Positions 6,831 through 29,455 of a stretch of 33,095 nt of DNA are shown here, piece by piece. The stretch covers positions 1-33,095 of the forward strand of contig DATKWT010000040.1 in assembly GCA_035529395.1 (NCBI GenBank). Reading direction: 5' to 3'. A program made the translations under genes and the position numbers. Position 1 is the first letter of the stretch, and the number at the start of each line of letters is the position of its first letter. Below the pieces are notes generated by a model. The model saw only the letters and a program-made list of their open reading frames with translations, ran no database searches and was not told the DNA's origin. The stretch comes from Dehalococcoidales bacterium (GTDB lineage: Bacteria; Chloroflexota; Dehalococcoidia; Dehalococcoidales; Fen-1064).

Positions 6831-6850
6831 AGGGCATTTCTCCTCATTAT

Positions 6851-8802: not shown

Positions 8803-8827
8803 GCTTTTCTTCCTCGGACAATAATGG

Positions 8828-10384: not shown

Positions 10385-10469
10385 TTGCCCCTCCATGTCA
10401 CCTACGGTGGTGATAATTTGTTCAATCCGGGTGGTGTAATTTCATTGGGCCCAAGGTATCTACTATCGT

Positions 10470-10501
10470 AATATAGCCATAAATCATTAAGAAGTTATTA
10501 A
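10470..10501 (-). promoter_or_regulatory. Regulated promoter of the MacAB-like operon (11-base direct repeat)
   Basis: Minus strand: TTAATA (10496-10501), five bases, TTAATG (10485-10490), nine bases, then -10 TATATT (10470-10475). There is no good -35; the repeat pair sits where it should be, as with PhoB/PhoP-class activated promoters. The same spacing recurs at two other promoters of this module. Confidence 0.55.
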
Positions 10502-10577
10502 GATATTCCTGGCATTGAATAATTAATCGCGTATACTGAAGTAGAAAATCATGGCAGGATAATATCGTTATAGGAAC

Positions 10578-11924
10578 CTACTCAGCTACCGGGACAGTGA
10601 AGGAGAAACGGCTGCCCTTGCCCGGTTCACTCTGGACTTCAATATTGCCCCCGTGGACTTCCACGAGACGCTTGGCGATGGTAAGGCCGAGCCCACTGCC
10701 ACCGGTTGCCCTGGTGCGGGACTTGTCAATACGGTAAAAACGCTCAAATATATTGGGCTGGTCCTCGGGAGGGATACCTTCACCGTTATCGGTAACGCTT
10801 ATTTCCAACCACCTATCTTTCGTTTTTACGGTAACACTGATATTTCCGCCTTCAGGCGTGTGGGCTATTGCGTTTTCCAGCATGTTACGCAAGACCTGAC
10901 TGATCCTGTGAGAGTCGACGTTGATTGGTGGTAACTCATCGGGCAATTCAGCAGACAACGATACCCCTTTTGCGGTTGCCTGAACATCACGTGCATCAAC
11001 CGCCTGTTGTATAAGTATGGCGCTGTCTTCTGTCCGGCAATTCAGTTTCAATTCACCAGCTTCAGCGAGGCTTAGCTCCTGGAGGTCGTCAGCAAGTCGG
11101 GATAAAATAATAGCCTCTTCATCAAGAGACCGGATTGTATTTGCATCGGGTTCTGCCACCCCGTCACGGATAGCTTCGAGGTATCCTCTTATATTGGACA
11201 GGGGCGTCCTTAGTTCATGCGCAGCGTCCGCAATCATGTCCCTGCGCAGTAGTTCGGTACGTTCCAGGTTTCCGGCCATCAGGTTAAAGGTATCTGCCAG
11301 TTCACCGAGTTCACTCCTGTCATTTACGTCTACTCTTTGAGAGAAGTCCCCCCGTCCCAGGAGCCTTGCCGTAGATGTAAGGGATTTTACCGGGGCTAAT
11401 ATCCTGCGTGACAGGAAAAACGTCATTATCAGTGCAATTGCTGCTGCGATAAGACCTCCCCAGATGAAAAAGAGACCCACCGCTTTGAACGTAATCTGTA
11501 ACGAAGCGATTTCCAGTTCTGCCGAGGATTGAGGGGTGACGTGAAGTGTACCGATACCATCTTTCCTCCACGGAGACTCCAGGATCTGACCCGGTGAATT
11601 AGGGCGATATGGTTCCCCCAGGATGATTTCAGCGGAATCAGCGACTACAATTCCAGCGGTATCAGTCAGAATGATTCGCTGCCCGTAGAGGTTGCCTAAC
11701 TGTTCCACGAAAGTCTGAATTCCTGCCCAGTTTCCTCGGCGCGAATAGTACCGGAATAGCTCAGTTTCCATCCTGATAGCGCGTGCCTGGTCAATACGTT
11801 TTTCAAATTCGCGTATTTCATTACGTGTAGCCTGGTTCAGGAAGAAGAATACTGTACCGATAGTCACTACTATCACCATGGTGAAGGCTATCAGCAAACG
11901 AAAACGCAGGCTATATATCATCAT
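10578..11924 (-). CDS. Membrane sensor histidine kinase
   Basis: 448 residues. A first membrane helix spans about 7-29, an extracytoplasmic sensing part about 30-148, a second helix about 149-171, then HAMP ([20 protein letters not shown]). The dimerisation helix carries the phospho-accepting His236 in [11 protein letters not shown]. The catalytic domain has the N-box [15 protein letters not shown]1 [12 protein letters not shown]-box FERFYRID and G2 [14 protein letters not shown]. It autophosphorylates and passes phosphate to the regulator encoded just upstream, whose gene it overlaps by 14 bases. No own ribosome site is evident, so translation is probably coupled. The stimulus is unknown; envelope stress or an exported compound is likely given the adjoining exporter. 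Confidence 0.93.
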
Positions 11925-12606
11925 TCACCACTGAGAGCTTGTAACCGGCCCCATATACCGTCTTTAAATACCTGGGGTGTCTGGGGTCTGGCTCAAGTTT
12001 TCGGCGAAGGTTGAGAATGTGGACATCAATGGTACGGTCAAAGCCTTCGAAATCATGACCAAGGGCTTTCTCAATAAGTTGTGCCCGACTAAATACTCTG
12101 CCCGGTTCCCTGGCGAAGACTCCAAGCAGTTTGAATTCAACCGCAGTCAGATTAATAAATCTGTTACACAGGTACGCTTCATGCTTGAGGAAGTTAAGTG
12201 TGAGTTTGCCGTACTTGATTTCGCTGGGGCCACGCTCTCCGGGGAGGCGCCTGAGGATAGCCCTGATTCTGGCAGCCAGTTCCCTGGGGCTGAATGGCTT
12301 GGTGACGTAATCATCCGCTCCCATGTCCAGACCCGTAAGCTTGTCTTCATCAGTGGTCCTGGCAGTGAGCATTATTATGGGAACATCGGACTCATTCCTC
12401 AGTGTACGGCATATCTCAAGACCGTCGATGCCGGGCAACATCAGGTCCAGCACGATGAGGTCAGGGTGGCCCTCCCTGGCCAGGCGCAGGGCTTCCACAC
12501 CATCATACGCAGTGAGGACCCGGTAGCCGTCCCTGTTGAGGTACAGCTTGACCAGCTCTACCGTTTTTACATCATCATCAACTACCAGTACCCTTTTTCC
12601 TGGCAT
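11911..12606 (-). CDS. OmpR/PhoB-family response regulator
   Basis: 231 residues from the ATG at 12606; a TTG at 12612 adds two. The receiver domain has the acidic pocket VDDD, phospho-accepting Asp54 in [10 protein letters not shown], Thr in IIMLTART and Lys in [10 protein letters not shown]. The C-terminal half is a winged helix ([22 protein letters not shown], then [17 protein letters not shown]). It binds DNA direct repeats as a dimer and activates sigma-70 promoters. GAGG eight bases before the ATG supports that start. It leads the two-gene operon with the kinase and has what looks like its own binding site in its promoter, so autoregulation is likely. Confidence 0.94.
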
Positions 12607-12638
12607 ACACAAGTCCTCGGCGATTCACTTACTCCCAA

Positions 12639-12670
12639 ATGTTAGAACGTTAATGTTAAGGAAATGTTAA
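12639..12670 (-). promoter_or_regulatory. Regulated promoter of the two-component operon
   Basis: Minus strand: TTAACA (12665-12670), five bases, TTAACA (12654-12659), nine bases, -10 TAACAT (12639-12644). The predicted start near 12632 leaves a leader of about 26 nt to the regulator's ATG. TTAACA repeats at 11-base period match the known Bacillus PhoP box type. Confidence 0.6.
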
Positions 12671-12702
12671 CATTCGGTACTCTACTTCTCAACCACAAAG
12701 AG

Positions 12703-12727
12703 AGAGTGGGAGAAATTCTCCCACTCT
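12703..12727. terminator. Hairpin terminator after the DUF2680-like gene
   Basis: Inverted repeat AGAGTGGGAGAA (12703-12714) and TTCTCCCACTCT (12716-12727), a stem of ten or more base pairs. It lies about 50 bases past the stop of the minus-strand gene and upstream of the two-component promoter, so it insulates the two units. The T-run after it is short (CTCTTTG). Confidence 0.6.
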
Positions 12728-12779
12728 TTCACCTGTTTCACTATTCAATTATTTGAGGTTTCCTGATTACCATGTACGG

Positions 12780-13226
12780 TTATTGTGCCGGAGTACTCGG
12801 CTGTGCGGGTGCAAACATGCCACCCCAGCCGCGACAACCGCCCATACCGCCACGGAACTTACCAGGTCCCCGGTGACCGAATCCGAACGAGACGTCAGGT
12901 TTAGCCTGCTGCCATTCTGAGTACTCGTCGGCCTGTTCCTGGGTTATCTTGCCCGTGTCTACCATGGACTGGAGCCATTCCTGCATAGCCTCTGTTCGCA
13001 TCTCGCTTTGAGCCTGATTTAATGCATCTTTCAGTGCTTCAGTGTCAAGAGCAGTGCCGGTCTTCTCCTGGTATATTGCCGAGATTCTCTCGAGCAGTGC
13101 ATCGAACTGCGCTTCAGGTTGAGTGTCCTCATCACCATCAGCAGCAAGTACCACCCCGCCAATGCTACCAACCAGCACAACTGTCGCCAGTATTGCTGCA
13201 ATAATCAGTTTCCTGCTTTTCCACAT
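12780..13226 (-). CDS. Secreted DUF2680-like small protein
   Basis: 148 residues from the ATG at 13226, which has GGAGGGG upstream; a longer GTG reading from 13307 lacks proper spacing. The signal peptide is MWKSRKLIIAAILATVVLVG with likely cleavage after GVVLA-ADG. The mature part is a charged helical segment (LLERISAIYQEKTG, then ALKDALNQAQSEM, then GKITQEQADEYSEWQQAKPD) ending in a Gly/Phe-rich tail (FGFGHRG, GGMGGCRGWGG). 'Kx-ITQEQAD' plus 'KPD-FGFG' is typical of DUF2680 proteins. It is transcribed alone from a promoter of the same layout as the exporter and two-component operons, so it probably belongs to that regulon. Function unknown. Confidence 0.72.
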   Translation of the reverse strand: MWKSRKLIIAAILATVVLVGSIGGVVLAADGDEDTQPEAQFDALLERISAIYQEKTGTALDTEALKDALNQAQSEMRTEAMQEWLQSMVDTGKITQEQADEYSEWQQAKPDVSFGFGHRGPGKFRGGMGGCRGWGGMFAPAQPSTPAQ

Positions 13227-13335
13227 CGCTTTATCCCCTCCTCTCTTCTGGTTACTACAAAACCTCAGTCTAAGAATCCTGTTTACATCTATTGTATTGT
13301 GTTCCACCTCCTCACTGATTTGACCTTCTGAAACA

Positions 13336-13367
13336 ATGTTAACACCAAAATATTAGAATCCTGTTAA
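13336..13367 (-). promoter_or_regulatory. Regulated promoter of the DUF2680-like gene
   Basis: Minus strand: TTAACA (13362-13367), five bases, CTAATA (13351-13356), nine bases, -10 TAACAT (13336-13341). The -10 hexamer and both spacings are identical to those of the response-regulator promoter. Confidence 0.55.
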
Positions 13368-13370
13368 GAG

Positions 13371-13814
13371 GTGAGGAGAATATCATGCTCCTGTGATTGG
13401 CTCTTTGGAAAAGTTATGTCTAAATATCCAATGAAGGCAGTTGCTTATGTATGTGTCACCGGGAATACGCAGAAAAAAGGTATGCCGGTTACGGTGCTAC
13501 TGGAATTTCAATATTGGGACGTCGTGGATCTGATTGAGTTTCCGGGGGAATTGGGATCACTTTGGATAAGAATCGGATACTATCGGAAAGCAAAGAATCG
13601 GCTGAACTGGCCAGCAAGACCCGGCTTTGAGAAGTTGGACTAACGCTGACTAGACGGCCCTGAGAACCACCGGAAGGCGTGGTAGTAACTCTGTGAAATA
13701 GGGTATCCTGGAGTGTGCTGATGGTCTGCTCTGGGGTATCATATTGTACTCGCCACTGCATATTACCTAGTGTACTGTCTTACAAATACCTTTACGTATG
13801 ATGGATGTTGATGT
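13371..13814. other. Intergenic stretch without a convincing gene
   Basis: An open frame on the plus strand (13371-13643) contains MKAVAYVCVTGNTQKKG from 13431, faintly like the start of serine recombinases (MKAVAYxRVS-Q), but the rest does not match and no ribosome site is seen. It may be a worn-out fragment. Nothing else is recognisable. Confidence 0.4.
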
Positions 13815-13965
13815 CATTCCAGCGCAGGCTGGACTCCCCTCTTCATTCTGAGCGACATGGCACTGGCCTTAGTGGCCCAGAATCTCACAGGTACGAGTCC
13901 ACATTCCTGATGCCACTCCAGTGCAGATCCTTCACTGCACTCATTTCCGCTCAGAACGATAAGAG
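13815..13965. repeat. REP-like degenerate intergenic repeat cluster
   Basis: Three motif types common in bacterial intergenic repeats occur together: TCATTCCAGCGCAGGCTGGA (hairpin TCCAGC/GCTGGA, 13818-13833), TCATTCTGAGCGA ending in CAGAAT (13845-13850 pairs with 13878-13883), and near 13930-13960 an inverted version (GATCCTTCACTGCACTC, then CCGCTCAGAACGA). The opposed ends suggest a palindromic pair. These are imperfect and carry no gene. Confidence 0.5.
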
Positions 13966-14041
13966 TAACACTCTGATAGTCTCACCTATCTATCTGAGCG
14001 AGAGCAAGGGAGTCGGCAAAGAGCCAGAGACATTACCGGTG

Positions 14042-15678: not shown

Positions 15679-16258
15679 GGATTTCCTTTCTGCCCAGTTC
15701 GAAGGCATCGAGGTTTATCTGGAGCAGCCGTGATGGCAGCCGCTGCGAGAGACTCTCCTTCCAGGCGTCCACCTCGAAAGGAGCGAAGTGCGAGAAGCAG
15801 CCCAGCATAAAGATATTGAGAGTCCTGGCGTTACCCAGCGCGGTGACACGAGTGGTCCCTTCCACGAAGTAGACCTGGTCGGTGCGCTGGCTCAGGATGT
15901 CGTGGATATTCTCATCATCGGGGTATTTTTCAACCCCCAGGTTGACGGCAAGCGGCGGGAGCATGTGGTTGTTGATGATGACCACGGCGCCGGGTCGAAG
16001 GTAGTTGCACCATCTGGCAGCTTCCAACTTCTCAAACGCGAGCATGATATCAACCTCTCCCTGCTTTATCAGGGGTGAATACACGCGGCGGGCGATACGT
16101 ACATGACTGATAACGCTGCCGTTCCGCTGTGCCATGCCCAGCGTATCCGTCTTCTTGACATCGTACCCGGCGGCCAGCGCCGTCTCACTGATAATATCAC
16201 TCGCCAGGATATTCCCCTGGCCACCGACCCCGGTCACAAACAGGTCCAGCACGTTCAC
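15662..16258 (-). CDS. iorB: Indolepyruvate ferredoxin oxidoreductase beta subunit
   Basis: About 198 residues; the gamma-type domain of 2-oxoacid:ferredoxin oxidoreductases. It opens LDLFVTGVGGQGNILASDII and continues KTDTLGMAQRNGSVISHVRI, both IorB hallmarks. With IorA it oxidatively decarboxylates aryl 2-oxo acids to aryl-acyl-CoA while reducing ferredoxin. The GTG at 16258 overlaps the iorA stop (GTGA) and has GGAG seven bases upstream; a second GTG at 16252 is nearly as good. A longer reading to 16351 runs through the iorA repeat region and is not credible. Confidence 0.9.
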   Translation of the reverse strand: MNVLDLFVTGVGGQGNILASDIISETALAAGYDVKKTDTLGMAQRNGSVISHVRIARRVYSPLIKQGEVDIMLAFEKLEAARWCNYLRPGAVVIINNHMLPPLAVNLGVEKYPDDENIHDILSQRTDQVYFVEGTTRVTALGNARTLNIFMLGCFSHFAPFEVDAWKESLSQRLPSRLLQINLDAFELGRKEIHDVHV

Positions 16259-18099
16259 TCCGTTTCTCCGGTCACAGTCCCCGTCTGCGGGGCAGTCCCC
16301 GTCTGCGGGGCTATAGCCTTCTGTGGGCATACCTGCTGGCAGATAGTGCAAATATCACCGACACACAGGGTGGCATCAATGTATACCTTGTCGTCTGCGG
16401 TCTGGATGGCCGGACAGCCAATCAGGAGACACACATCACAACGATTGCACTTCTCGGCATCGACCACCCTGGGTTCACCGCGCCGCGGTGCCCCCACAGC
16501 GCAGGCACCACGTACGATAATGACGGCAAGCTCCGGACTGGCCAGAGCACTCCTGGCTGCGGCCCGCAGATCCTTCATGTCAAAGGCATTAACCACCTGA
16601 ACATCACTGACGCCCACGCCACGCACCACATTCTCCAGTTCCACTTTAGCGGTCGTCTTACCCTGCGCGGAAACGCCGGTACCGGGATGTTCCTGGTGCC
16701 CCGTCATCGCCGTGGTCCCGTTGTCCAGGATAACCACGGTAATCTTGCCTTCGTTATAAACGGCGTCCACCAGCGGCGTAATACCGGAATGCAGGAAGGT
16801 GGAGTCGCCAATGACGGCCACTATATTGGTATCGATTCCGGCCTTCTCCATGCCCAGTGCCTGCCCGATGCTGGCACCCATGCAGGCCGTGGTATCCATA
16901 GCATTAAGCGGTGGGTAGGTCGCCAGCGTGTAGCATCCGATGTCGCCGGTGATAATCAGGTTGGACTTCTTGGCAGGTTTATCCCCCGAACCGGGCGGCT
17001 TCAGCCGCTGCCCCATGCTGGCGAGTACGAAAAACATGCCGGTATGCGGACAGCCGGGGCAGAGAAGCGGAGGCCTTTTCGGAAGGTCGGCGACTGCCGT
17101 TATCTCGGTTGGTACGGAGGCTTCGGTAAGAATCCCGGCATCGACGGCACCCCTGGCAACTACGTCCGAACTCAACTCTCCCACCAGTGGAATGAAGTCC
17201 TTTCCACTGACTTCCACGCCCATTGAGCGGATGTTCTCCTCCAGGAACGGGTCAAGCTCTTCGATAACAACCAGTCGGTCCACCTGTGCAGCAAAGCGGC
17301 GTATCAACTCCCGAGGCAGAGGATGCGTTATGCCCAGCTTGAGAAAGGAGGCGGCGGGGAAGACTTCGCGGGCATATTGGTAGGCGACCCCGCTGGTGAT
17401 AACACCGAGGTTACGTTCACCCGACTCTACCCGGTTCAGGGGAGAGGTCTCGGCAAACCCGGCCAGCTTGACTATGCGCTCCTCGACCAGCGGATGACGG
17501 AAGCGAGCATTAACCGGTAGCATTACGTACTTGGAGACATTGCGCGGAAAACCCACCTCACCTGTCGGTACCGGTCTACTCCGGCTAAGGTCCACCACGG
17601 ACTTGGAGTGAGAGATGCGGGTGGTGGTGCGTACCATCACGAGGGTATCGAACTGTTCGCTGATATCGAAAGCGATGGCCATCATGTCATAGGCTTCCTG
17701 GCTATCGCTCGGTTCGAGCACGGGCACCTTGGCCAGCCTGGCGTAGTGGCGGTTGTCCTGTTCACTCTGGGAACTGTGCGTCCCCGGGTCATCGGCGCAA
17801 ATGAGGACCAGCCCGCCACTGACCCCGGTAATGGAAGCCGCCATGAAGGGGTCGGCAGCTACGTTAAGGCCGACGTGCTTCATGGATACTACCGAACGGA
17901 CACCTGCGTAGCACGCTCCGAGGGCCACCTCCATGGCGACCTTCTCATTGGTTGACCACTCGGCGTAAATATCGTCAAAGCGGGCAATGGACTCAAGTAT
18001 TTCAGTGCTGGGGGTTCCCGGATAGGCAGTGGCTACTCGGGCACCGGCATGGTAGGCTCCCCAGGCAAGGGCTTCATTTCCAGAGAGCAGTCTCTTCAT
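16255..18099 (-). CDS. iorA: Indolepyruvate ferredoxin oxidoreductase alpha subunit
   Basis: 614 residues, normal for IorA. The N-terminal domain starts MKRLLSGNEALAWGAYHAGA, TAYPGTPSTEILE. The thiamine-diphosphate domain has GDIGCYTLATYPPLNAMDTT and VIGDSTFLHSG, then ILDNGTTAMTGHQEHPGTG. The C-terminus has two 4Fe-4S motifs: CNRCDVCLLIGCP and CVGDICTICQQVCP. It forms the catalytic core with IorB, passing electrons to ferredoxin. The ATG at 18099 has no ribosome site and sits only nine bases after a consensus -10, so the transcript is probably leaderless. The tail beyond the clusters is extended by a tandem 18-base duplication (APQTGT twice). Confidence 0.93.
   Translation of the reverse strand: MKRLLSGNEALAWGAYHAGARVATAYPGTPSTEILESIARFDDIYAEWSTNEKVAMEVALGACYAGVRSVVSMKHVGLNVAADPFMAASITGVSGGLVLICADDPGTHSSQSEQDNRHYARLAKVPVLEPSDSQEAYDMMAIAFDISEQFDTLVMVRTTTRISHSKSVVDLSRSRPVPTGEVGFPRNVSKYVMLPVNARFRHPLVEERIVKLAGFAETSPLNRVESGERNLGVITSGVAYQYAREVFPAASFLKLGITHPLPRELIRRFAAQVDRLVVIEELDPFLEENIRSMGVEVSGKDFIPLVGELSSDVVARGAVDAGILTEASVPTEITAVADLPKRPPLLCPGCPHTGMFFVLASMGQRLKPPGSGDKPAKKSNLIITGDIGCYTLATYPPLNAMDTTACMGASIGQALGMEKAGIDTNIVAVIGDSTFLHSGITPLVDAVYNEGKITVVILDNGTTAMTGHQEHPGTGVSAQGKTTAKVELENVVRGVGVSDVQVVNAFDMKDLRAAARSALASPELAVIIVRGACAVGAPRRGEPRVVDAEKCNRCDVCLLIGCPAIQTADDKVYIDATLCVGDICTICQQVCPQKAIAPQTGTAPQTGTVTGETE
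16276..16311. repeat. 18-base tandem duplication at the 3' end of iorA
   Basis: Two perfect copies of AGTCCCCGTCTGCGGGGC (16276-16293, 16294-16311). Each holds a CCCCG/CGGGG hairpin. In frame it encodes APQTGT twice at the IorA C-terminus; it ends 18 bases before the iorB start. Confidence 0.85.
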
Positions 18100-18108
18100 T
18101 TTCAGGAT

Positions 18109-18136
18109 ATTATACCACAACCAGCCCGCAGGTCAC
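18109..18136 (-). promoter_or_regulatory. Promoter of the iorAB operon, likely leaderless
   Basis: Minus strand: -10 TATAAT (18109-18114), preceded by TGG (extended -10), and GTGACC (18131-18136) 16 bases further up. Transcription would start near 18102, about three bases before the iorA ATG. Confidence 0.65.
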
Positions 18137-18155: not shown

Positions 18156-18226
18156 TCTACACTAAGCTGGGGTGCTCTGCTTTGTCCATGCTCCCTTCTT
18201 TAAATAAGGCAGTAGCGTAGAGGATA
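18156..18226 (+). repeat. Dispersed foldable repeat, copy 1
   Basis: About 70 bases ending TAAATAAGGCAGTAGCGTAG then AGGATA. The left end CTACACTA is the near-complement of the right end TAGTGTAG as found in copy 2, so the element is an imperfect inverted repeat. Same orientation as copies 2 and 3. Confidence 0.65.
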
Positions 18227-18286
18227 CGCAATGGATTTGCTGGTCGCAGTTGATTCAAGCGGTATGTCTTCCATTCGGAGGTTGTT

Positions 18287-18682
18287 CTATCTCTTTAAGA
18301 AAAACCCAACCAAGCAGAAGACTGGGACGCTCAGGAAGAACACTCCAAATAGTAGATTAGTATTGGAATTCAATGGCTCTGCAACAACTACTGTAATTAC
18401 TGCTCCAAAGATGCTGCCGAGAATACCAAGCAGTAAAGAGCCTTGTTGGTGGAGAATCTTTCTAATTGAGATAATACCAACTATTATTCCAGTAGGGTAA
18501 CCTACTAATATCCCACCAAGAGCGAGACCAAGTGCTCCGAATCCAAATGAGTCACCTCCCAGGACTTTGCCACCTATAAGAGCACCTACTAACCCAAATA
18601 CGATACCGATAATTCCCAAACCGATAGTCATAAGAAGAAACTTGAATATTCTCCCCGCTACGAATGATGATTGCTGAGACAT
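18287..18682 (-). CDS. Glycine-rich small membrane protein
   Basis: 131 residues, almost all hydrophobic with many Gly. Four membrane segments are plausible: about 13-37 (FKFLLMTIGLGIIGIVFGLV), 46-70, 80-101 and 107-128. The start MSQQSSFVAGRIF is polar; the end VGFFLKR is basic. A TATAAT lies at 18722-18727 and AGGAT seven bases before the ATG at 18682, so expression is likely. Domain family not recognised; it resembles small channel- or anchor-like proteins in general form only. It sits between repeat copies 1 and 2 and faces the chagasin gene in the opposite direction. Confidence 0.65.
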   Translation of the reverse strand: MSQQSSFVAGRIFKFLLMTIGLGIIGIVFGLVGALIGGKVLGGDSFGFGALGLALGGILVGYPTGIIVGIISIRKILHQQGSLLLGILGSIFGAVITVVVAEPLNSNTNLLFGVFFLSVPVFCLVGFFLKR

Positions 18683-18799
18683 ACTTTTATCCTAAAGCTC
18701 CTGTTTCTCGCTATCTTGACTATTATACCCTATGAAACGATATGCTACCTTACATAGCTTCAAAATATCCGCCAACCTCACTGACCTGGTACAGATTTT

Positions 18800-18866
18800 A
18801 TGCGGGGTGCTCCCCTTGCTCTATCGTCCACCCTCCCCTCTTCAAATGAGGCAGTAGTGTAGAGGA
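18800..18866 (+). repeat. Dispersed foldable repeat, copy 2
   Basis: Contains GTCCACCCTCCCCTCTTCAA then ATGAGGCAGTAGTGTAGAGGA; the last 35 bases match copy 3 closely and copy 1 with about six changes. CCTC/GAGG and CCTCT/AGAGG pairings can form inside it. Confidence 0.65.
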
Positions 18867-18921
18867 CAATTTACAATTCATGTTTTGTGCGGTCAAAGAG
18901 ATATTCAGGTTCTACCCTTGA

Positions 18922-18950
18922 TTGACATTTCCGTAGGTCAGAACTACCAT
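18922..18950 (+). promoter_or_regulatory. Promoter of the chagasin-type gene
   Basis: TTGACA (18922-18927), 17-base gap, TACCAT (18945-18950, four of six matches). About 55 bases of leader to the ATG at 19010. Confidence 0.5.
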
Positions 18951-19009
18951 TATGCTTATCAAACAGGATTTTTCGTTATAGAGGGTTTCGTTTGTAAGGA
19001 GGAACAATA

Positions 19010-19441
19010 ATGAAACACAAAATCATGCTAATACCTATGATACTAGTCGCCCTGCTAGCACTATCATCATGCATTGTCACGTCAAGTTTAACCAATGTAG
19101 AGATTTCGTGTGACGAATTTGCTGAGAATCCTCATAGCATGAGGAACGAATTTCAGGTAGAGATTGGCGATAAAATTACAGTGAAGCTATGCTCAAACCC
19201 AACGACAGGTTTTCAATGGGATTATGAAACGACCATAGAAAATGTGTTAAAAGAAGAAGACCATGACTTTGAAGAGCCTAAAGATAAGGGTCTTGTAGGA
19301 GCCGCTGGTATAGAAGTTTGGACTTTTGAAGCGGTTGAAAAGGGGACAACTGAAGTGCGAATGGAATACAGCCAGCCGTGGGGAGGTGGCTTGAAGGCAG
19401 AATGGACGTACACTGTGACGGTCACGGTTGATCAGGGTTAA
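19010..19441 (+). CDS. Chagasin-type (I42) cysteine protease inhibitor lipoprotein
   Basis: 143 residues. A lipoprotein signal has lipobox LSSC with Cys21. The mature domain shows the three chagasin loops: NPTTGFQW near residues 64-71, the GLVGAAGIEVWTFEA region (usually GxGGxxxW), and YSQPWGGG (usually YxRPW) near 120-127. Members inhibit papain-like cysteine proteases by inserting these loops in the active site. An AAGGAGG ribosome site lies eight bases before the ATG. Anchored outside the cell it may protect surface proteins from its own or foreign proteases. It lies alone between repeat copies 2 and 3, on the strand opposite to its neighbours. Confidence 0.88.
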   Translation: MKHKIMLIPMILVALLALSSCIVTSSLTNVEISCDEFAENPHSMRNEFQVEIGDKITVKLCSNPTTGFQWDYETTIENVLKEEDHDFEEPKDKGLVGAAGIEVWTFEAVEKGTTEVRMEYSQPWGGGLKAEWTYTVTVTVDQG

Positions 19442-19458
19442 TCAATAGAAGAATGTCA

Positions 19459-19524
19459 CTCTACTGTGGTGCGGGTTTTCGCTTGTCCACCCCCTCTTCA
19501 AATGAGGCAGTAGTATAAAGGATA
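19459..19524 (+). repeat. Dispersed foldable repeat, copy 3
   Basis: Begins 18 bases after the chagasin-type stop. Contains CTTGTCCACCCCCTCTTCAA then ATGAGGCAGTAGTATAAAGG. Shares about 34 of its last 40 bases with copy 2. Confidence 0.65.
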
Positions 19525-20087
19525 CCCTACGAAGCAACCCCCTGATTCAAGGAATAGAAATATTCTATACTTGTGTATTAACGTGTTCATATAATACTGT
19601 CAAAGTAGCTCATCCGGAATGGTTTGCATTCTTTCTAACTGGCAAAGGAGGACTTGCGACAGTGGATTCTGGTTATATGAAAGGATGGTTATTGTGACTG
19701 GCTGCAGGTATGGGTATTGGCATATCTATTGAATCCATCTGTCTATTCTTGATTGCGACTCCATTTCCTACCTCCTTATTATCTAAGCAGGGATGTGTCA
19801 TGCCTGGAGGGCCGACCAAGTAGGGATATCTGTGCTGATGTGGTTGCCGGGAGGGGGGAAGTATCCTCGAAGCAATTCGAGGGCTTCCTGCGGATTTCGG
19901 TCAAATCGGCCACCCCCTGGTGTCTTGGGGATGGTGGAACAGCGCCGAGTTAAAAGTCAGTTTAGCTCAACTTAACGTCATCTGCTAGGTCAGGTTGAAC
20001 AAACCGATGAATTGTGTGATGAGGCTGTATTCTGCCGCAAAATGCAGCCTGCCCAAGAAGCGTTGAACAGTAGACAGCCGGTGTGGG
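19525..20087. other. Gene-free stretch with one hairpin
   Basis: No credible gene seen on either strand. A hairpin at 20022-20031 / 20041-20050 (AGGCTGTATT with AATGCAGCCT, one G-T pair) lies 40 bases past the end of the nitronate monooxygenase-like gene and may mark its mRNA end, though it lacks a T-run. Confidence 0.5.
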
Positions 20088-21167
20088 TCAGACGGGTAGC
20101 CTGTTCTGTGCCATTTCTCCGGTTGCTTCCAGCACCTTCTCTGCTTCAACCACAATCCGCTCAACCAACTCCTGACAACCAGGTATATCAGTTATGCCAC
20201 CGATAACCTGACCTATGTCAAAAGTACCAGCCGATTCATCGCCGTCGAATAACACTTTCTCTACTCTGGCGGTACTGGCCGCATAGCGGAGTTGCTGCCA
20301 CATACTCACTCCCCCCTCACCCTTTCTGGAGCTCAGGCCACTACGAATGAGTTCCCACCACGAAATGCCCAGTAGTCGCTTCGTTTCAACGGCACCTGTG
20401 ATAGACCCCACTACTGGGAACCTCTTCTTCATGGCATCTTCAGCCTGTTTGTTCCGATACACCCTGGCATTGACCGCCGGGTCGCCAACATCCATATATA
20501 CCGTATCTTGCTCGGTGGACTGCAGAATCTTCTGTTTCCAATGTTCGCTTAGAGGACATTCCTGGGTTACGGCAAACCTGGTACCCATCGTCACTCCCGA
20601 AGCTCCCAGGGCTAGGGCTGCTGCCAATCCTCTACCATCGTAGAAACCACCGGCCGCAATGACAGGGACCTTGACAGTACTGGCAACCATGGGTATCAGT
20701 ACCATTGAGGTAGCGAAGCCCCCATGTGCCGCCGCTTCGTGACCGGTAATGTTGACGATGTCAACTCCGAGTTGCTCAGCTCGGGCTGCATGTCTCACCA
20801 GGGCCACGGTGGCCATGACTTTGCCGCCGTAGTTGTGGACTGCTTCGACCAGAGGGACAATATCGGGGGGTCTTCCCAACGTGTAATTGACGACAGGAAC
20901 CTTCTCTTCTATAACGACTGCTAGGTTCGCCTTAGCCGTGGGAGACAGGAGTATTTGGTTAATCGCAAAGGGCTTGCCATCAGTGATATCCCTAATTGCC
21001 CTGATATCACTTCGCAGACTCTCTGGCGTGTGGCTGGAGATAGCCAGGTTGCCCAAACCGCCAGCATTGCTGACAGCCGAGACAATCTTTGGCTGAGTAA
21101 GCCAGTTCATTCCAGCTAGCATGATGGGGTGCCTTATCCCAAGTAGCTCTGTCATCCTGGTTTTCAT
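20088..21167 (-). CDS. Nitronate monooxygenase / 2-nitropropane dioxygenase-like flavoprotein
   Basis: 359 residues, FMN-binding TIM barrel. It opens MKTRMTELLGIRHPIMLAGM and has SAVSNAGGLGNLA, the active-site loop NITGHEAAAHGG (His as in class members), then VIAAGGFYDGRGLAAALALG and GVTMGTRFAVTQE for phosphate binding. Family members oxidise alkyl nitronates; several relatives are enoyl reductases (FabK) or of unknown substrate, so the exact reaction is open. GGAGG seven bases before the ATG at 21167 supports the start. It has its own strong promoter and no close operon partners. Confidence 0.88.
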   Translation of the reverse strand: MKTRMTELLGIRHPIMLAGMNWLTQPKIVSAVSNAGGLGNLAISSHTPESLRSDIRAIRDITDGKPFAINQILLSPTAKANLAVVIEEKVPVVNYTLGRPPDIVPLVEAVHNYGGKVMATVALVRHAARAEQLGVDIVNITGHEAAAHGGFATSMVLIPMVASTVKVPVIAAGGFYDGRGLAAALALGASGVTMGTRFAVTQECPLSEHWKQKILQSTEQDTVYMDVGDPAVNARVYRNKQAEDAMKKRFPVVGSITGAVETKRLLGISWWELIRSGLSSRKGEGGVSMWQQLRYAASTARVEKVLFDGDESAGTFDIGQVIGGITDIPGCQELVERIVVEAEKVLEATGEMAQNRLPV

Positions 21168-21280
21168 TAGCAGCCTCCGCTTTCCATGAAATTACCTGTA
21201 CTCCTGATCGACCAACCGTCACTTGGTTCGAGGTCAATCATCTCGGCTTGTGATGAGTGAATGCTGGTAAGCTGTTGCCA

Positions 21281-21309
21281 ATGATATAAGCATTGCAGAT
21301 GATTGTCAA
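21281..21309 (-). promoter_or_regulatory. Sigma-70 promoter of the nitronate monooxygenase-like gene
   Basis: Minus strand TTGACA (21304-21309), 17-base gap, TATCAT (21281-21286). Leader about 105 nt. Confidence 0.7.
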
Positions 21310-21820
21310 CCTCGCTGAGCCGAGGCCACACCGTAGCCAGGGTCAGACAACAGAGCCAAACTTAAGCACCTGATACGTCGGCTCAGGTGGTGATGACTAT
21401 CACTACCACAGAATGGAACCATTCTCAAGGCACACATTATGGCTTTCTGTGCAATGGCCATTCCACCGGCGTACCGCGCTTCCTGGTGTTCCATTGCGCC
21501 TGGGCACGCCGGATTCCTTGACACTCGGCAGTTCATAGACCCTTTTGACCTGCACGGCTTTCTTGATGCACAAGACGGCTTCAAACTGAGAGTTGATAGG
21601 AAGGGTAACCCCCTGTTGAGACACTTCGGTCAAATATATGATAGGTCACGATCAATCCCATATGATCACACGACCCATGTTGTCAGAATGTTACCTATAA
21701 CGGATAGGGCTACGCCCACCAGGACGTCTTGCGACTGGGGGTCTTCTCCACAGTAGCATTATCCTTGTTTGCGGTTTGGTGGTGAAACCGTTCTTGGACA
21801 AGAGCGCTATCCCATGCTGA
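21310..21820. other. Gene-free stretch downstream of the sulfatase
   Basis: No supported gene. A short minus-strand run at 21508-21558 reads AVQVKRVYELPSVKESG, like the start of DUF488 proteins, but similarity ends at once. No terminator with a clear T-run was found. Confidence 0.4.
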
Positions 21821-24097
21821 CTACTGCCGGCCCATTTCCGTTTGAGTTTCGGCTTCTCGGTATTCCTGCTCAGATTCCCTCGGGATTCTTCTTGGCACAT
21901 CGAAGACCACCTTGTCGATCTTGCCGGTAAATGGAAACTCCCCATCATAGTCCTCTGTGACAGGGGAAAGGGCATCCCGTCCGATATCCATGCCGGCCGC
22001 CGAGATGATCCGCAGTACCCTGGGGAAGGATACGGTTCCGGAATCCTCTCCGTTGATGAGCACCGTAGCCCGGCCCTCCTGGTCGATTCGCTCAAAGCGG
22101 ACGCCCAGGATAGATTTACCCACGGGCACACCTGCCTCGGATGTCACCCGATAGTGAGTGGAAAAGAGGTTGTAATCAAAGATCAGCCGGTTATCCTTGA
22201 TATAGACGCTCAATCCGCTGGTGTTTGTCCCTCTGGCGACCAGTACACCTTCGGTCTTGTCATCGGGTCGATCAACGTCAACCGTGAGGGTCCAGGAGCG
22301 GTTTCCGATTACCGGAGAGGTCTCGGTTGTCATATGGGATACCGGAGGATAGTAGACATACCGCCTGCGTGCAGAAGGGGTGTGCTGCCTTCTGGCGGTT
22401 GTGAAAAGCTGGTTGAGCCGATCATCTAGGGGGAGAACGCCATACTTACCGGCCTCGGTCCACCACCGTTCGATCATCGCTCTCAGTTTTTCAGGATGCG
22501 ATTGAGCGAGATTGTGACATTCCGAGAAGTCCTCTTCGAGATCATAAAGCTCCCACTCGTCCCTTTCGAAGTCCGTGCCGGGCTCATGATAGGCTACCGC
22601 TTTCCAGCCATCGCAGTAGAGACCCCGGTTACCGGCCATCTCGAAATACTGGACGTGCTTGTGACTCGGTTCGGCGGCATTTTCCGGCTTAAAGGTGTAT
22701 GTCATGCTCACGCCTTCGATTGGCTTTTGGGGGATGTCGTGGTAAACCTCGGGTGCTTCCATACCAAGGACGTCCAACACGGTAGGAACGATATCGATAA
22801 CATGATGAAACTGTCTGCGGATGCTATCTTGCTCCTTGATCCCCTTGGGCCAATGGACAATGAGTGGGTCCCTGATGCCACCACCATGGGTGAAGCGCTT
22901 ATAGCGCTTAAGGGGCGTATTCCCTGCTTGAGCCCACCCCATGGGGTAGTTGTTGTTGCTCTTCGGTCCGCCGATTTCATCGATACGGGCAAAGCTGTCC
23001 TTGAAGCTCTCCGGGATGAGATTGAAACCCTTCATGGTGTCCATCACACCGATCGGCCCACCCTCCATGCTTGCGCCGTTGTCTGCAAGCAGAAAGATCA
23101 GGGTATTATCGAGTTCTCCGATATCACCGAGGAAATCGATAAACCGACCCACATGATGGTCTGTGTGGTCCAGCATCCCTGCAAACGCCTCCTGGTAGCG
23201 TACAAAGAGTCGCTTTTCATCATCGCTCAGGTCATCCCAGGGACGTACCCCTTCATTGGGTGGCGCCAGATCCGTGTTCTCAGGCACTATGCCAGACGCT
23301 TTCTGGCGCTGGAGGTATTCCTCCCGCATCGCGTCCCAGCCCCGGTCAAATCGACCCTTATACTTCTCTATATACTCTTTGGGCGCATGATGTGGTGCGT
23401 GGGTGGAGCCGAAACACATGTATAAGAAAAAGGGCTTCTCCGGTACAGTTGATTTTTGGTCTCCAACAAACCGTATTGACATATCCACGATGTCTTCGGT
23501 CAGATGATATCCTTCGTCGGGCCTTCGTGGCGGATCCACGGGATGGTTGTCACAAAAAAGCTCAGGGTAGAACTGGTGGGTCTCGCCCTGCAGGAATCCA
23601 TAGTAGCGATCAAATCCCCTCTGCAGAGGCCAGTTGTCGAAGGGACCCGCTACGGACGTTTCGTCCATGGGTGTGAGATGCCACTTTCCTGTAGCGAAGG
23701 TACTGTATCCCTTGGCGCGGAGGATTTCCGCTATGGTAGCAGCGCTGGAGTCGATGCGTCCACGACAGTTGGGAAATCCCGTATTCCAGTTCGACAGCCC
23801 CCGCATCCCCACTGAATGATGGTTCCGACCGGTAAGGAGACAGGCACGGGTGGGGGAGCAGAGCGCGGTGGTATGGAAATTACTGTAACGGATCCCACCG
23901 GTGGCTAGTCTGTCAAAGTTCGGTGTATCGATGTTGGAGCCGTAGCAACCAAAGTGAGCGAAACCCGTATCGTCGAGAAGGATAAAGACAACGTTGGGGC
24001 TTCCTTCCGGGGGAGTAGGAGGATCTGTCCACTCAGGTACCGATTCACTTAATGTGCGACCGACGACACCACCGAAGTTGATATCGCTTGATGACAT
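21821..24097 (-). CDS. Arylsulfatase-type (S1 family) sulfatase with C-terminal extension
   Basis: 758 residues from the ATG at 24097 (AGGAG six bases upstream; an ATG at 24103 touches the ribosome site). It begins with the metal-binding FILLDDTGFAHFGCYGS. The core LCSPTRACLLTGRNHH is the sulfatase signature, with Cys80 to be converted to formylglycine. GKWHL, THAPHHAP and LADNGAS complete the active site. It hydrolyses sulfate esters. After the catalytic domain (about 520 residues) a further 200 form a beta-sandwich-like extension. No signal peptide is visible, so it appears cytoplasmic. No maturase gene lies nearby; the Cys-type signature needs one from elsewhere in the genome. Confidence 0.93.
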   Translation of the reverse strand: MSSSDINFGGVVGRTLSESVPEWTDPPTPPEGSPNVVFILLDDTGFAHFGCYGSNIDTPNFDRLATGGIRYSNFHTTALCSPTRACLLTGRNHHSVGMRGLSNWNTGFPNCRGRIDSSAATIAEILRAKGYSTFATGKWHLTPMDETSVAGPFDNWPLQRGFDRYYGFLQGETHQFYPELFCDNHPVDPPRRPDEGYHLTEDIVDMSIRFVGDQKSTVPEKPFFLYMCFGSTHAPHHAPKEYIEKYKGRFDRGWDAMREEYLQRQKASGIVPENTDLAPPNEGVRPWDDLSDDEKRLFVRYQEAFAGMLDHTDHHVGRFIDFLGDIGELDNTLIFLLADNGASMEGGPIGVMDTMKGFNLIPESFKDSFARIDEIGGPKSNNNYPMGWAQAGNTPLKRYKRFTHGGGIRDPLIVHWPKGIKEQDSIRRQFHHVIDIVPTVLDVLGMEAPEVYHDIPQKPIEGVSMTYTFKPENAAEPSHKHVQYFEMAGNRGLYCDGWKAVAYHEPGTDFERDEWELYDLEEDFSECHNLAQSHPEKLRAMIERWWTEAGKYGVLPLDDRLNQLFTTARRQHTPSARRRYVYYPPVSHMTTETSPVIGNRSWTLTVDVDRPDDKTEGVLVARGTNTSGLSVYIKDNRLIFDYNLFSTHYRVTSEAGVPVGKSILGVRFERIDQEGRATVLINGEDSGTVSFPRVLRIISAAGMDIGRDALSPVTEDYDGEFPFTGKIDKVVFDVPRRIPRESEQEYREAETQTEMGRQ

Positions 24098-24131
24098 GAT
24101 CATCTCCTTTCAGCTGGGATTTCCTATTTCA

Positions 24132-24166
24132 ACTGACGATGAGGAGCCATGCTCCTCATCGTCAGT
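24132..24166. repeat. Perfect 16-bp hairpin in the sulfatase leader
   Basis: ACTGACGATGAGGAGC (24132-24147), loop CAT, then its exact complement (24151-24166). It lies in the predicted leader, some 20 bases before the ribosome site. No T-run follows, so it is not a standard terminator; it may be an operator or an mRNA stabiliser. Confidence 0.75.
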
Positions 24167-24249
24167 GGCAGCCCAGTGTCACGGGAACTGCTGAAGAACA
24201 CGCCGTACGGCCTGGCAAGTCGAACGCCCCGTGCTGAATTGTTGCCCAC

Positions 24250-24278
24250 AGTCTAAGGGTAGACTGAAAGGATGTCAA
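24250..24278 (-). promoter_or_regulatory. Promoter of the sulfatase gene with overlapping inverted repeat
   Basis: Minus strand TTGACA (24273-24278), 17-base gap, TAGACT (24250-24255). A CAGTCTA/TAGACTG inverted repeat (24249-24266) covers the -10, a usual place for a repressor. Leader about 145 nt. Confidence 0.6.
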
Positions 24279-24526
24279 GCTGTGCGAGGTCTTACTGTAG
24301 ATGTAGAAAGTTGCCACATGGCGAAACAAACAAAGGAACGATTCCCGGATTGCACAAAATGAACTTTTGTGTCCTAAGGGTGGTCATTCGTCTGGTACTA
24401 GCGAATGGCCGGTCAACATCAACAGGCTCCTCGGGTGGCATCGACACGAGCATTATTACCGCCGTGGCCGCGGCAGCCTCCGTGCCAGAGATTACCGAGT
24501 CTCGATCTAAGGTGAGTGCACTCAGT

Positions 24527-24952
24527 CTATACGACGGACCCCACTACATGGTGAGTCCTGGCGTCCACGTGGAACGCCTTTGACTGGGGATCGACGTAGT
24601 AGAGCCAGATTGTCTTGCCTACCACGCGTTGTGGTCTCCCACTTAGCTTGAAACCCGAACCGAAGGACCCAGGCTTGATGGATTTCCATCTGGACGGGTC
24701 ACTCTCATATTTCACAACGACAACCCCCAAGAATTGCCCGGGAAGCGGCCCTTTTCTTTTCTCGCTTCGCGCGCAGTAATTGCGAGCCGCCTGCAGGGCG
24801 CTCCGCTCGTTGTCGTATAGGTCCAAGACATGGTCCTTCGCGGCGCCCTCGTTGGGCTGGCCCAGATTTGGGTGAGTGACGATCCGAGTTCCATCGAAGC
24901 GTTTGACCAGCCTCAACTGGAAATGCATGTTTGGCGGCAATGTCTTTGCCAT
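24527..24952 (-). CDS. Hypothetical small basic protein
   Basis: 141 residues, not recognised. It is rich in Lys, Arg and Val with no membrane segment or signal peptide. It reads as a compact soluble domain (MHFQLRLVKRFDGTRIVTHP, later KTIWLYYVDPQSKAFHVDAR). An AGGCGG lies five bases before the ATG at 24952. It is not overlapped by any better candidate and stands alone between the sulfatase promoter region and the P-loop kinase. It could be a real orphan gene or a chance frame; amino-acid use is natural and favours a gene. Confidence 0.5.
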   Translation of the reverse strand: MAKTLPPNMHFQLRLVKRFDGTRIVTHPNLGQPNEGAAKDHVLDLYDNERSALQAARNYCARSEKRKGPLPGQFLGVVVVKYESDPSRWKSIKPGSFGSGFKLSGRPQRVVGKTIWLYYVDPQSKAFHVDARTHHVVGSVV

Positions 24953-25186
24953 TCGGTCCGCCTGGTAGGTGCCTTACCCGTATTGGCAGCCTTCTCTAAC
25001 CTGTTTCGGAGCTTCTTACCGGAACACGCCCAACCGGGTGTATCTTTGCCACAAAACAGACATTATTCCATATGACCCAACTGGATCAAGAAGACAAATC
25101 GTTGTGTAATCATAACACAAAGCAAAGCAGCCTAGAACATACAAAACGCCCGAAAGTGCAACTGCTGTATTCATATCCACGATTTG

Positions 25187-25750
25187 TTATGCACGGATAA
25201 TACCTACCGAGAAGGCTCGTCGCATTACTTCCTCTGCCGTTTGTTGTGCTGTCATGCCTTGGGTATCTATCCAAAGCCCGATACCGGATAACTCCCCAAG
25301 CATCTCTTCATATAGGTCGATGCAGGATTCAGCTACTGTTTTCTCAATGCGTAAACCGTCACGTTTCAAGGAAACTTCCAGTGGTGGAGCAAGAACAATC
25401 ATAGCAACAGGGCTTACTGTAATCTTCGATACAAGGTTGTTTAGCCGCTTTGTGTTCGACATGCAATTATCGATTACGGGAAAGAAACCAGCTTGAAAGA
25501 AGCTGTTTGCAAGAAGAGCCATGTTCCTCTCCCTGAGTCGTAATTGACGCTCAACTTCTTCTTTATCCTTGGATTCTCCGGGTGGATGAACTCTGCCGGC
25601 CACAATAAGATTGTGAATCTCATCACCATTAATGTGAGCACCTCTCGAACAATTTGTGGCAATCAGTTGGGCAACAGTCGTCTTACCGGAACCGGGGAAA
25701 CCATTAAGAAGCAGGACGCCTGGGGGCTTATATTCTGCGTTCATGTTCAT
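25187..25750 (-). CDS. P-loop AAA-type small-molecule kinase (zeta-toxin/ChlPT-like)
   Basis: 187 residues from the ATG at 25750. Walker A GFPGSGKTT follows a hydrophobic strand (GVLLLNGFPGSGKTT). GAHINGDEIHNLI supplies an acidic residue after strand 2, and FFPVIDNCMS resembles the Walker B region of zeta-toxin, gluconate-kinase and chloramphenicol-phosphotransferase-like ATPases. Such proteins phosphorylate small molecules or nucleotide sugars; substrate unknown. A longer frame starts at 25795, but that ATG overlaps the gene's own -10, so it cannot be in the transcript. No antitoxin gene was found next to it, which argues against a toxin-antitoxin pair. Confidence 0.75.
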   Translation of the reverse strand: MNMNAEYKPPGVLLLNGFPGSGKTTVAQLIATNCSRGAHINGDEIHNLIVAGRVHPPGESKDKEEVERQLRLRERNMALLANSFFQAGFFPVIDNCMSNTKRLNNLVSKITVSPVAMIVLAPPLEVSLKRDGLRIEKTVAESCIDLYEEMLGELSGIGLWIDTQGMTAQQTAEEVMRRAFSVGIIRA

Positions 25751-25786
25751 ACGATTATCAAAGTCTCTTGAGTAAGGAGAGAAATC

Positions 25787-25815
25787 ATTATACATAAGTC
25801 AAAAGAGGCAGTCAA
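25787..25815 (-). promoter_or_regulatory. Sigma-70 promoter of the P-loop kinase gene
   Basis: Minus strand TTGACT (25810-25815), 17-base gap, consensus TATAAT (25787-25792). It lies only about 37 bases before the chosen ATG. Confidence 0.75.
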
Positions 25816-26210
25816 ACCTGATAAAGGTATAATGCCAAAGGACACATTTCGCTACATTGTTGGATACGAGGCCCTTGCCGCAGGACCGCTTATCGCCAGT
25901 TCCGAGAATCGTTCCATTGTCTGATTTGGTGTCCTACCTTCGAGCGGCAAGATTCCTACTTATCTCCAACTCGTTCCTAACCGGTTTCTTACGCGAATAG
26001 TGTAGAGTCCTGACAGAAGAGGACAGATCCGGTATGGGCTGAACAGCACAGAAGGAGCTGTCCTCTTCTACAAGGTCCGGGTGGCAGAACCCTGAGTAAC
26101 CCACTCAGGAGAGGAGTTCCATTCTCAGCCGCTACTCCTGCTGAAGAGAATGACCTCCAAGCCATGCCATAGTGGCTGCACGGGCAGGGGGCTGGACACT
26201 CAAGCCTGAA
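25816..26210. other. Gene-free stretch with inverted repeats
   Basis: No credible gene. A perfect 12-base inverted repeat, AGAAGAGGACAG (26015-26026) and its complement (26058-26069), encloses 31 bases; a smaller hairpin CCTGAGT/ACTCAGG lies at 26091-26109. These may be a terminator-like structure, a transposon relic or an RNA fold. No transposase is visible. Confidence 0.55.
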
Positions 26211-26239
26211 TTGACAAGGGCAGTGTTGTGGACTATAGT
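26211..26239 (+). promoter_or_regulatory. Strong sigma-70 promoter of the tail-collar operon
   Basis: TTGACA (26211-26216), 17-base gap, TATAGT (26234-26239). Start near 26246 and leader about 190 nt to the GNAT gene. It may drive the whole plus-strand unit to the right edge. Confidence 0.75.
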
Positions 26240-26436
26240 GCGCGTATCCGTGTACAGCTAGAACATACGCCTACCCGACCTCAGTACAGCGGCAGGATCC
26301 CCCTGAAGGAGCTGGGTGGTGGAAGATGCAAGGGCACCAGAATCGTCAAGTGAAGCGAGGTCCGTACCGCGGAGCAGCCTGGCGAACAACCACCGGGCCG
26401 CGCAGACGTGTTGTCGCGACGGCCGTGGAGATAGTG

Positions 26437-26967
26437 ATGCGAATCGACCTTGAACCGAAAGCGCGTGCCTTCGCCGTAACTCTTCGGCCCGTTGTCGAAG
26501 CCGATGCGGAGTTCCTGTTTTCCCTGTACGCCAGTACACGCGCTGATGAAATGGCCTTGGTGGACTGGGATGCAGCCCAGAAGGATGCCTTTCTGAGAAT
26601 GCAGTTCACTGCCCAGACAGCCCACTACGCGAGGTTCTTCCCCCGGGCCGTGCACGAGGTCTTGCTGCTCGATGACCGTCCAATCGGCCGGGTCTACGTC
26701 GACACGAATGACGAGGAGATTCGACTGCTTGACATTACCCTGCGGCCTGAACACCGCAACCTTGGCACCGGGACCGCGCTGATGCGGGACCTGATGGACC
26801 AGGCCGAGCTGGAGAGAAAACCCATTCGGTTCTACGTATGGGAATCCAATCTCGCAGCCCAGCGGTGGTACAGGCGGCTGGGCTGCCTTGTCACTGACAA
26901 ACGAGATATCTATATCGCGATGGAGTGGCACCCGCCGCGGATCAGCGAAGGGAGGGAACTAACATGA
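26437..26967 (+). CDS. GNAT-family N-acetyltransferase
   Basis: 176 residues from the ATG at 26437, which has GGAG six bases upstream; the longer frame from 26326 adds an unlikely basic lead. The GNAT fold is seen in VTLRPVVEADAEFLFSLYAS (strand 1 and helix), then LLDITLRPEHRNLGTGTALM, holding the acetyl-CoA pyrophosphate loop (RNLGTG), and FYVWESNLAAQRWYRRLGC, the standard C-terminal motif. It acetylates an amino group of an unknown target. Its stop overlaps the next start (ATGA), so it is coupled to the tail-collar cluster, where GNATs are recurrent partners; it may modify a collar or DUF6916 protein. Confidence 0.86.
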   Translation: MRIDLEPKARAFAVTLRPVVEADAEFLFSLYASTRADEMALVDWDAAQKDAFLRMQFTAQTAHYARFFPRAVHEVLLLDDRPIGRVYVDTNDEEIRLLDITLRPEHRNLGTGTALMRDLMDQAELERKPIRFYVWESNLAAQRWYRRLGCLVTDKRDIYIAMEWHPPRISEGRELT

Positions 26968-27428: not shown

Positions 27429-27478
27429 CGATTGCTCAATTATTGGCGTTTAGTCATTACAGCGGAGGATAGACCACT

Positions 27479-27994: not shown

Positions 27995-28024
27995 TGCACG
28001 AGGAGACGACTAAGGAGAAAACCA

Positions 28025-28540: not shown

Positions 28541-28558
28541 TGCACAAGGAGACGACCG

Positions 28559-29065: not shown

Positions 29066-29104
29066 GTGGGCCCACGAAGTGATGCGGTGAAAACGCGGCG
29101 GAAT

Positions 29105-29416: not shown

Positions 29417-29455
29417 AACCAGGCATCCTGTGTAGTCCTGTGAGGGGAGTCTATC

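Follow-up and report, generated by a model that had tools for sequence, protein, structure and literature searches.

Integrons are the textbook system for gathering single genes in arrays. Their attC sites carry the boxes RYYYAAC and GTTRRRY at their ends and form an imperfect hairpin that is conserved in structure. Integrons in Archaea are the subject of one report (PMC9668308).

Two further systems come close to the locus described here. In Dehalococcoides, ssrA islands are described as tandem stacks beside an RNA gene, some of them without an integration module (McMurdie et al. 2011, PMC3146451). According to the same report, these islands involve the serine recombinase DsiB, 20-bp ssrA repeats and a six-gene integration module, and islands lacking the module are proposed to be mobilised with their neighbours. 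The suicidal integrases of archaea (SSV1, pTN3, pT26-2) have their target inside their own gene, and fragments of that gene remain after integration (PMC8371274). They are reported there as N and C gene fragments, the C fragment with the catalytic domain, and as found exclusively in archaea. In the literature, judged mainly on titles and abstract openings, we recognised no description of a Dehalococcoidia cassette system like the one below.

The window is a stretch of 33,095 nucleotides of a Dehalococcoidales bacterium (contig DATKWT010000040.1), to which all window positions refer. It carries three copies of a non-coding module of ~70 bp (R; length ~65-75 bp), all on the + strand and in the same direction: copy 1 at 18167-18234 is the left boundary site of the array, copy 2 at 18800-18875 forms part of a composite site, and copy 3 at 19462-19532 is the right boundary site found in the window. 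Start-to-start spacing is ~642 and ~656. These spans are the best fits of a profile trained on the window copies among others, so that the nhmmer scores of 44.1 bits (E 3.3e-12), 57.3 bits and 43.3 bits are each for a copy in the training set.

The three same-direction repeats had been proposed in the earlier note, and direct alignment of the copies confirms them. A 27-base core pattern, written from the R copies themselves, matches three times in the window at up to 3 mismatches and 0 times in 100 dinucleotide shuffles. Over 41 bases, copies 2 and 3 are 85% and 66% (ungapped) identical to copy 1, and the events are therefore old. As that note also described, the copies alternate with two genes. 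The first cargo gene, a 131-aa ORF at 18287-18682 on the minus strand, is membrane-type by eye and has no Pfam and no NCBIfam match; the second, at 19010-19441 on the plus strand, encodes a chagasin-type (I42) inhibitor (PF09394, E 9.4e-25) that looks like a lipoprotein by eye.

We read this array, with a probability of roughly 0.6, as a stack of single-gene mini-cassettes that lack an integrase, lie at sites of a tRNA-targeting tyrosine recombinase and are moved in trans by a related integrase. The two window genes have moved between distant relatives as separate units, probably with the help of a cut-and-rejoin enzyme.

R is confined to a single place in its genome. A 26-base core at up to 3 mismatches occurs at three places in the 2.36-Mb genome (191 contigs), all at the array. 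Profile matches outside the array reach E 0.02-0.2 only, and a nucleotide search with copy 1 alone gave copy 1 as its sole strong match. An even spread of copies across intergenic regions, the outcome that the earlier note would have held against a link to gene gain, is not what we found: confident copies are restricted to one locus. The same observation bears on the suggestion of MITE-like elements. Independent insertion of MITE or REP-like repeats on both sides of small genes would fit copies that are short and intergenic and in which no coding signal was found, but confident copies lie on one contig per genome, keep the same orientation within each locus and have no conserved terminal inverted repeat or fold. 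We find this explanation hardly credible.

The complementary ends once ascribed to the repeats belong to different copies, CTACACTA to copy 1 and TAGTGTAG to copy 2. Across 14 R copies, the longest run of end complementarity is 3-7 bases, a length equalled in at least 28 of 300 shuffles for every copy, and conserved terminal inverted repeats were not found. Nor did the proposed folding hold up: the window copies fold not significantly better than shuffles on both strands (z -1.47 to +1.03), and the RNAalifold consensus has 0 pairs in 8 copies and 0 pairs in 11 copies. We also considered R as an RNA element; this was ruled out by the absent consensus fold together with the absence of any Rfam match in the window at the gathering threshold.

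The window arrangement resembles integrons but is without their known site features. A direct repeat array, small genes between the repeats, accessory cargo and a tyrosine recombinase in the wider system are shared with attC arrays, and the first two could suggest an integron array without integrase (CALIN) whose attC sites have diverged. However, neither GTTRRRY nor RYYYAAC is present in any of the 14 R copies and there is no conserved hairpin, which makes a CALIN very improbable. In contrast to integrons, moreover, the cargo here lies in both directions, one of the site modules is the 3′ end of an integrase gene, and several of the integrases are found at tRNA genes.

To the left of the array lies iorA (16255-18120; POR_N and TPP_enzyme_C domains), whose protein is 93-94% identical in the genus-mates G001 and G002. 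Near-identical DNA stops at window position 18154 for G001 and 18149 for G002, just before copy 1, and copy 1 is therefore the left edge of a strain-specific region. Past the stop, G001 carries different DNA, with genes for tRNA-Gly and for a PAS-domain histidine kinase; in G002, the contig has only ~75 more bases. The right edge was not found in this comparison. Neither G001 nor G002, whose genomes are incomplete (95% and 88%), has a near-identical stretch for window 19540-33095, and to the right of copy 3 the best G001 match reaches 63-68% identity over parts and 82% over 73 bases, with none in G002. No tRNA or tmRNA was found in the window, no tRNA fragment near the array and no tRNA-derived repeat between the window cassettes. 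Further left, window 5884-14019 (~8.1 kb) is absent in both genus-mates, in which 5371-5883 adjoins ~14020 onward; it has the appearance of a clean-ended, strain-specific insertion.

The relatives of the two cargo genes lie in other genomes of the order. The 131-aa ORF has its best relative in G088, from another family, at 80% amino acid identity (next best 50%). DNA homology with G088 covers 18277-18792 at 80%; it starts 43 bp past copy 1 and stops just before copy 2, reaching neither repeat. The chagasin protein is 75% identical to one in G151 and 53% identical to one in G011, each beside an R copy. With G151, again from another family, DNA homology covers 18833-19474 at 77%, from inside copy 2 to the start of copy 3, and ends in the 5′ end of copy 3. 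In both intervals, similarity to the relatives' DNA thus begins and ends at the repeats or at most ~45 bp from them. The comparison therefore shows both intervals to have moved between families as units of cassette size. The G151 gene has a clear R on one side and a divergent R on the far side, the latter known by eye and from a profile trained on it; the second R model (below) did not list it.

Other chagasin homologs are mostly free of R. Three of 29 loci, the window's own excluded, have R at E<0.02, and no R lies beside the homologs of G065, G107:C57, G150, G119, G106 and G129 (55-70% amino acid identity); at the G012 homolog, a divergent copy may be present by eye. Of the 156 genomes of the order, 64 encode chagasin-type inhibitors related to that of the window, the closest being in other families, not in the genus-mates.

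Copies in other genomes flank small genes as well. G011, from the same family and another genus, has five confident R copies in one direction within 4.1 kb. The intervals between them hold an ATC_hydrolase-like gene, a lipoprotein gene (by eye), a PEMT-type methyltransferase gene, and a membrane-type gene (by eye) together with a chagasin gene; the last two are separated by a weak extra R copy (by eye). ABC transporter genes come after the array and G011 is without a close iorA, and its neighbours therefore differ from those of the window. In G149, small genes lie between two R copies, the second one divergent and at a contig end. The earlier note had proposed that the repeats mark sites where small genes are gained, and this is well supported by the interval matches to G088 and G151, the different DNA of G001 and the G011 and G149 loci. 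On its further question, whether relatives lack the island, G001 has other DNA on the iorA side, and the right side is unmatched in the genus-mates.

The wider distribution of R was followed with two models. The first, sequence-only and trained on 8 copies (window and G011), listed 51 of the 156 genomes of the order at E<=0.05. Nine of these were strong (>=29 bits), namely the two training genomes and seven further genomes, and matches below ~29 bits were treated as chance. The second, trained on 15 copies and run on 393 genomes of the class, listed 9 at E<=0.001 and added one confident match outside the order, G282; G482 (1.3e-4) is weak, and G237, G485, G248 and G169 (2e-4 to 1e-3) were put aside by eye.

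Searched with higher sensitivity, 13 chosen genomes yielded 17 R sites at E<=1e-8; the sites lie in 11 of these genomes, on a single contig per genome. Fifteen of the 17 sites had trained the model, while those in G282 and in a contig labelled Thorarchaeota had not; a G012 match (0.13) was retained as weak, and weaker matches elsewhere in the 13 genomes were taken as chance. The sample of 11 genomes with confident R is small, and within each locus the orientation of R is uniform. An exact R pattern searched in 84,980 genomes matched five contigs, four from known R genomes (Dehalococcoidia/Dehalococcoidales) and one from the MAG labelled Thorarchaeota. A viral origin of R was considered and rejected: a 21-letter pattern had two exact matches in viral contigs, which share their surroundings and carry no more of R by eye, and a longer R pattern had 0 matches in viral contigs.

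The link to a recombinase comes from a second module, S, which flanks the relative of the 131-aa ORF in G088 as a repeat and whose sequence also adjoins copy 2 in the window. On the opposite strand, S reads as the 3′ end of a tyrosine recombinase gene: it is contained in full-length ORFs of G007, G072, G079, G145 and G034, which match Phage_integrase (PF00589) at E 1e-17 to 2e-26. The window S, at 18744-18798 on the minus strand, comprises the last ~15 codons of such a gene, reads ..C^TRSVRLADILKLCK and is joined directly to copy 2. It matches the S pattern with 1 mismatch (0 matches in 100 shuffles), scores 37.7 bits with an S profile that had this copy in its training set, and reaches E 0.0027 with a model of six full-length integrase genes that was trained without it. 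This 3′ remnant is all that is found of a tyrosine recombinase at the window repeats; full-length PF00589 genes are present at related loci.

Of the 156 genomes of the order, 28 contain the S pattern at up to 3 mismatches, with 47 matches in total, compared to 8 matches of a reversed control. The pattern requires the 3′ core, and fragments without the core are therefore mostly missed. One of the full-length genes, that of G145, is without the stretch next to the HTFRR motif in the alignment and may be defective. In a phage search with a full-length integrase as query, all matches were below 60% identity, with 22.8-28.6% in the best 10 of 364.

By eye, the reverse strand of R (VLYTTALFEEG..) resembles the S tail (RYTRSVKFEES..), and R was considered as an integrase tail in its own right. 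This candidate failed a randomisation test. In a six-frame alignment, the R consensus scored 19 compared to a null mean of 18.6, and 242 of 500 randomised sequences (first-order resampling) were as good; copy 2 was equalled by 306 of 500 and the G107 copy by 128 of 500. Mismatches by codon position are flat (0.295/0.251/0.290), no full-length integrase gene was found ending in R, and a plasmid search with the 24-aa R consensus gave no match.

How much of the integrase gene is left in each S copy was assessed with a model built from the final 460 bases of six full-length genes, G052 excluded, on part of the 47 pattern matches. At the loci examined, 25 of 33 gene ends are remnants and 8 fill the model, the latter being the six training genes, one gene in G052 and a G150 gene split into two ORFs. 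No remnant begins farther than 72 nt upstream of the catalytic Tyr codon: of the 25, 11 start within -9 to +10 of it, 10 at 25-43 and 4 at 52-72, with none between 72 and 393. A previous build of the model likewise yielded 25 non-redundant remnants, none farther than 80 nt from Tyr. Three of 36 rows were dropped for ending short of the Tyr codon, a divergent second integrase (L193) and, both in L195, a contig-end fragment and a tail-less integrase fragment; the last of these speaks mildly against a pure tail picture. At the loci examined, the S boundaries are non-random.

The boundaries weigh on the main rival, in which complete integrase-plus-cargo elements were stacked, their integrase genes decayed to 3′ ends, and integrase-less cassettes never moved. 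Several loci have the look that such a history predicts. The G033 layout (L193) is a tandem accretion: a tRNA-Lys gene at 4223-4298 has an exact 43-bp copy at 8631-8673, 4.4 kb away, before a second integrase. In G052 (L196, 9115-9639) a second integrase tail lies no more than ~20 bp beyond a full-length integrase, in G150 the order is broken integrase, cargo, tail, cargo, and L195 has the integrase fragment without a tail. The ssrA islands of Dehalococcoides are described as stacking likewise (PMC3146451). However, random decay would not be expected to leave 25 of 25 remnants so close to Tyr and none of intermediate length, no tRNA-derived repeat separates the window cassettes, and one cassette found in three families has tails with no integrase body detected directly beside it. 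The absence of intermediate remnants in particular disfavours accretion and decay, which we judge rather unlikely.

That cassette carries a cold-shock gene (PF00313) and is common to G088, G081, G066 and G034:C105 at 72-87% DNA identity. G088 and G081 have an S tail on both sides, and homology extends from one tail to within 36-41 bp of the next one. G066 and G034:C105 each have a single detected S tail, which the homology with G081 enters.

Cassette boundaries at or near shared sequence, with S or R on both sides of some cassettes, would also be expected from RecA-type recombination between short repeats after DNA uptake, the repeats serving as homology handles left by old elements. Nevertheless, the shared sites are ~50-75 bp long and mostly ~70-90% alike, hence poor substrates for homologous recombination, and S boundaries near the Tyr codon are left unexplained. 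This route seems improbable to us.

A site-specific reading makes S itself a candidate recombination target, which would be shared with the suicidal integrases as described (PMC8371274), whose target also lies in the integrase's own gene. Unlike the fragments reported for those, the remnants here are the last codons only, from about the catalytic Tyr; their boundaries cluster at the 3′ end, the full-length genes keep a tail, and no pair of an empty and an occupied site was found. Synonymous identity among five integrase genes, which are few and not independent, is highest (0.58) in the block around Tyr (columns 320-340), compared to 0.40 from column 60 to Tyr and 0.24-0.50 in the other 20-column blocks. 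From the Tyr codon on it is 0.52, and with other blocks reaching 0.50 the signal of codon conservation is therefore modest.

Several full-length recombinase genes of the S family sit at tRNA genes. In G079, tRNA-SeC is followed by a full-length integrase, and in G081 and G091 a weak S tail comes within ~45 bp after this tRNA gene, with single-gene intervals behind it and no integrase detected; this tRNA (L190, L192, L206) looks like an insertion hot spot. The most compact case is in G034, where exact 47-bp tRNA-Pro repeats bound an element of ~1.7 kb with the order tRNA repeat, full-length integrase ending in S, one CBS-domain gene, R, tRNA gene. Integrase, S and R co-occur in this one element. 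Full-length PF00589 genes, several of them at tRNA genes, and the exact tRNA repeats of G034 are features shared with tRNA-targeting Phage_integrase elements. Unlike the usual ones, the G034 element is very small, with an integrase and a single gene, and related loci contain single-gene units that are integrase-less and end in integrase tails. Direct repeats of a tRNA 3′ part, present in G034, were not found at the ends of the window array.

With the ssrA islands, as far as they are described (PMC3146451), these loci share a related bacterial group, tandem stacking beside an RNA gene and units without an integration module. They differ in having a tyrosine recombinase (PF00589), tRNA genes and single-gene units, and the window has neither tRNA nor tmRNA.

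R adjoins S, always in one relative order, in the window, G107, the Thorarchaeota-labelled contig L112 (S weak) and G151:C8, where the first part of R only lies beside S. A 114-bp composite of R and S is common to the window and G107 at 79%. This adjacency and the G034 element therefore link the window repeats to the recombinase family. By profile search, no S was detected beside many of the R copies and no R in S-only arrays. In G107 (L020 / L048), two direct S repeats 116 bp apart enclose R, which gives the impression that R had entered an S site.

We propose that each cassette would consist of a gene plus a boundary site, the sites all pointing one way whatever the direction of the gene. 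Two modules would serve as sites, the non-coding R of ~70 bp and S, the 3′-terminal part of the integrase gene, which begins near the catalytic Tyr codon and reaches the stop. The recombinase may cut at S and R, and a cassette of the form S-gene-R would be excised, possibly as a circle, and re-inserted without the integrase body, a related integrase acting on it in trans. An R|S joint, for example that at window 18744-18875, would represent the closed end of one unit, and stacking would produce arrays of the type R-gene-R|S-gene-R.

A stronger version of this proposal, which we put forward tentatively and somewhat doubt, is a separate kind of bacterial cassette system. In Dehalococcoidales, a tRNA-targeting tyrosine recombinase would use the 3′ end of its own gene (S) and R as its site and move integrase-less single-gene cassettes in trans. 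It would be an integron-like platform of independent origin, and its enzyme the first bacterial integrase known with a site inside its own coding end. If true, a second, independent way of gathering single genes would exist in a large, mostly uncultured bacterial order. It would reveal by what route small genes of unknown function spread in the order and provide a sequence signature for finding more cassettes. The concrete question raised is whether the end of an integrase's own gene can serve it as a site; a single enzyme and a single DNA fragment would suffice for an in vitro test.

Finally, in G057 (L021, 950-1480), an NgoPII-type restriction enzyme gene, matched over the first half of the family profile, ends shortly before R. 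The contig from the MAG labelled Thorarchaeota (L112, JAOUFI010000100.1) has R at 6349-6412 with a decayed S tail adjoining, reflecting either cross-domain transfer or misbinning, and it carries defence-type genes (AbiU2 HEPN, DndB-like).
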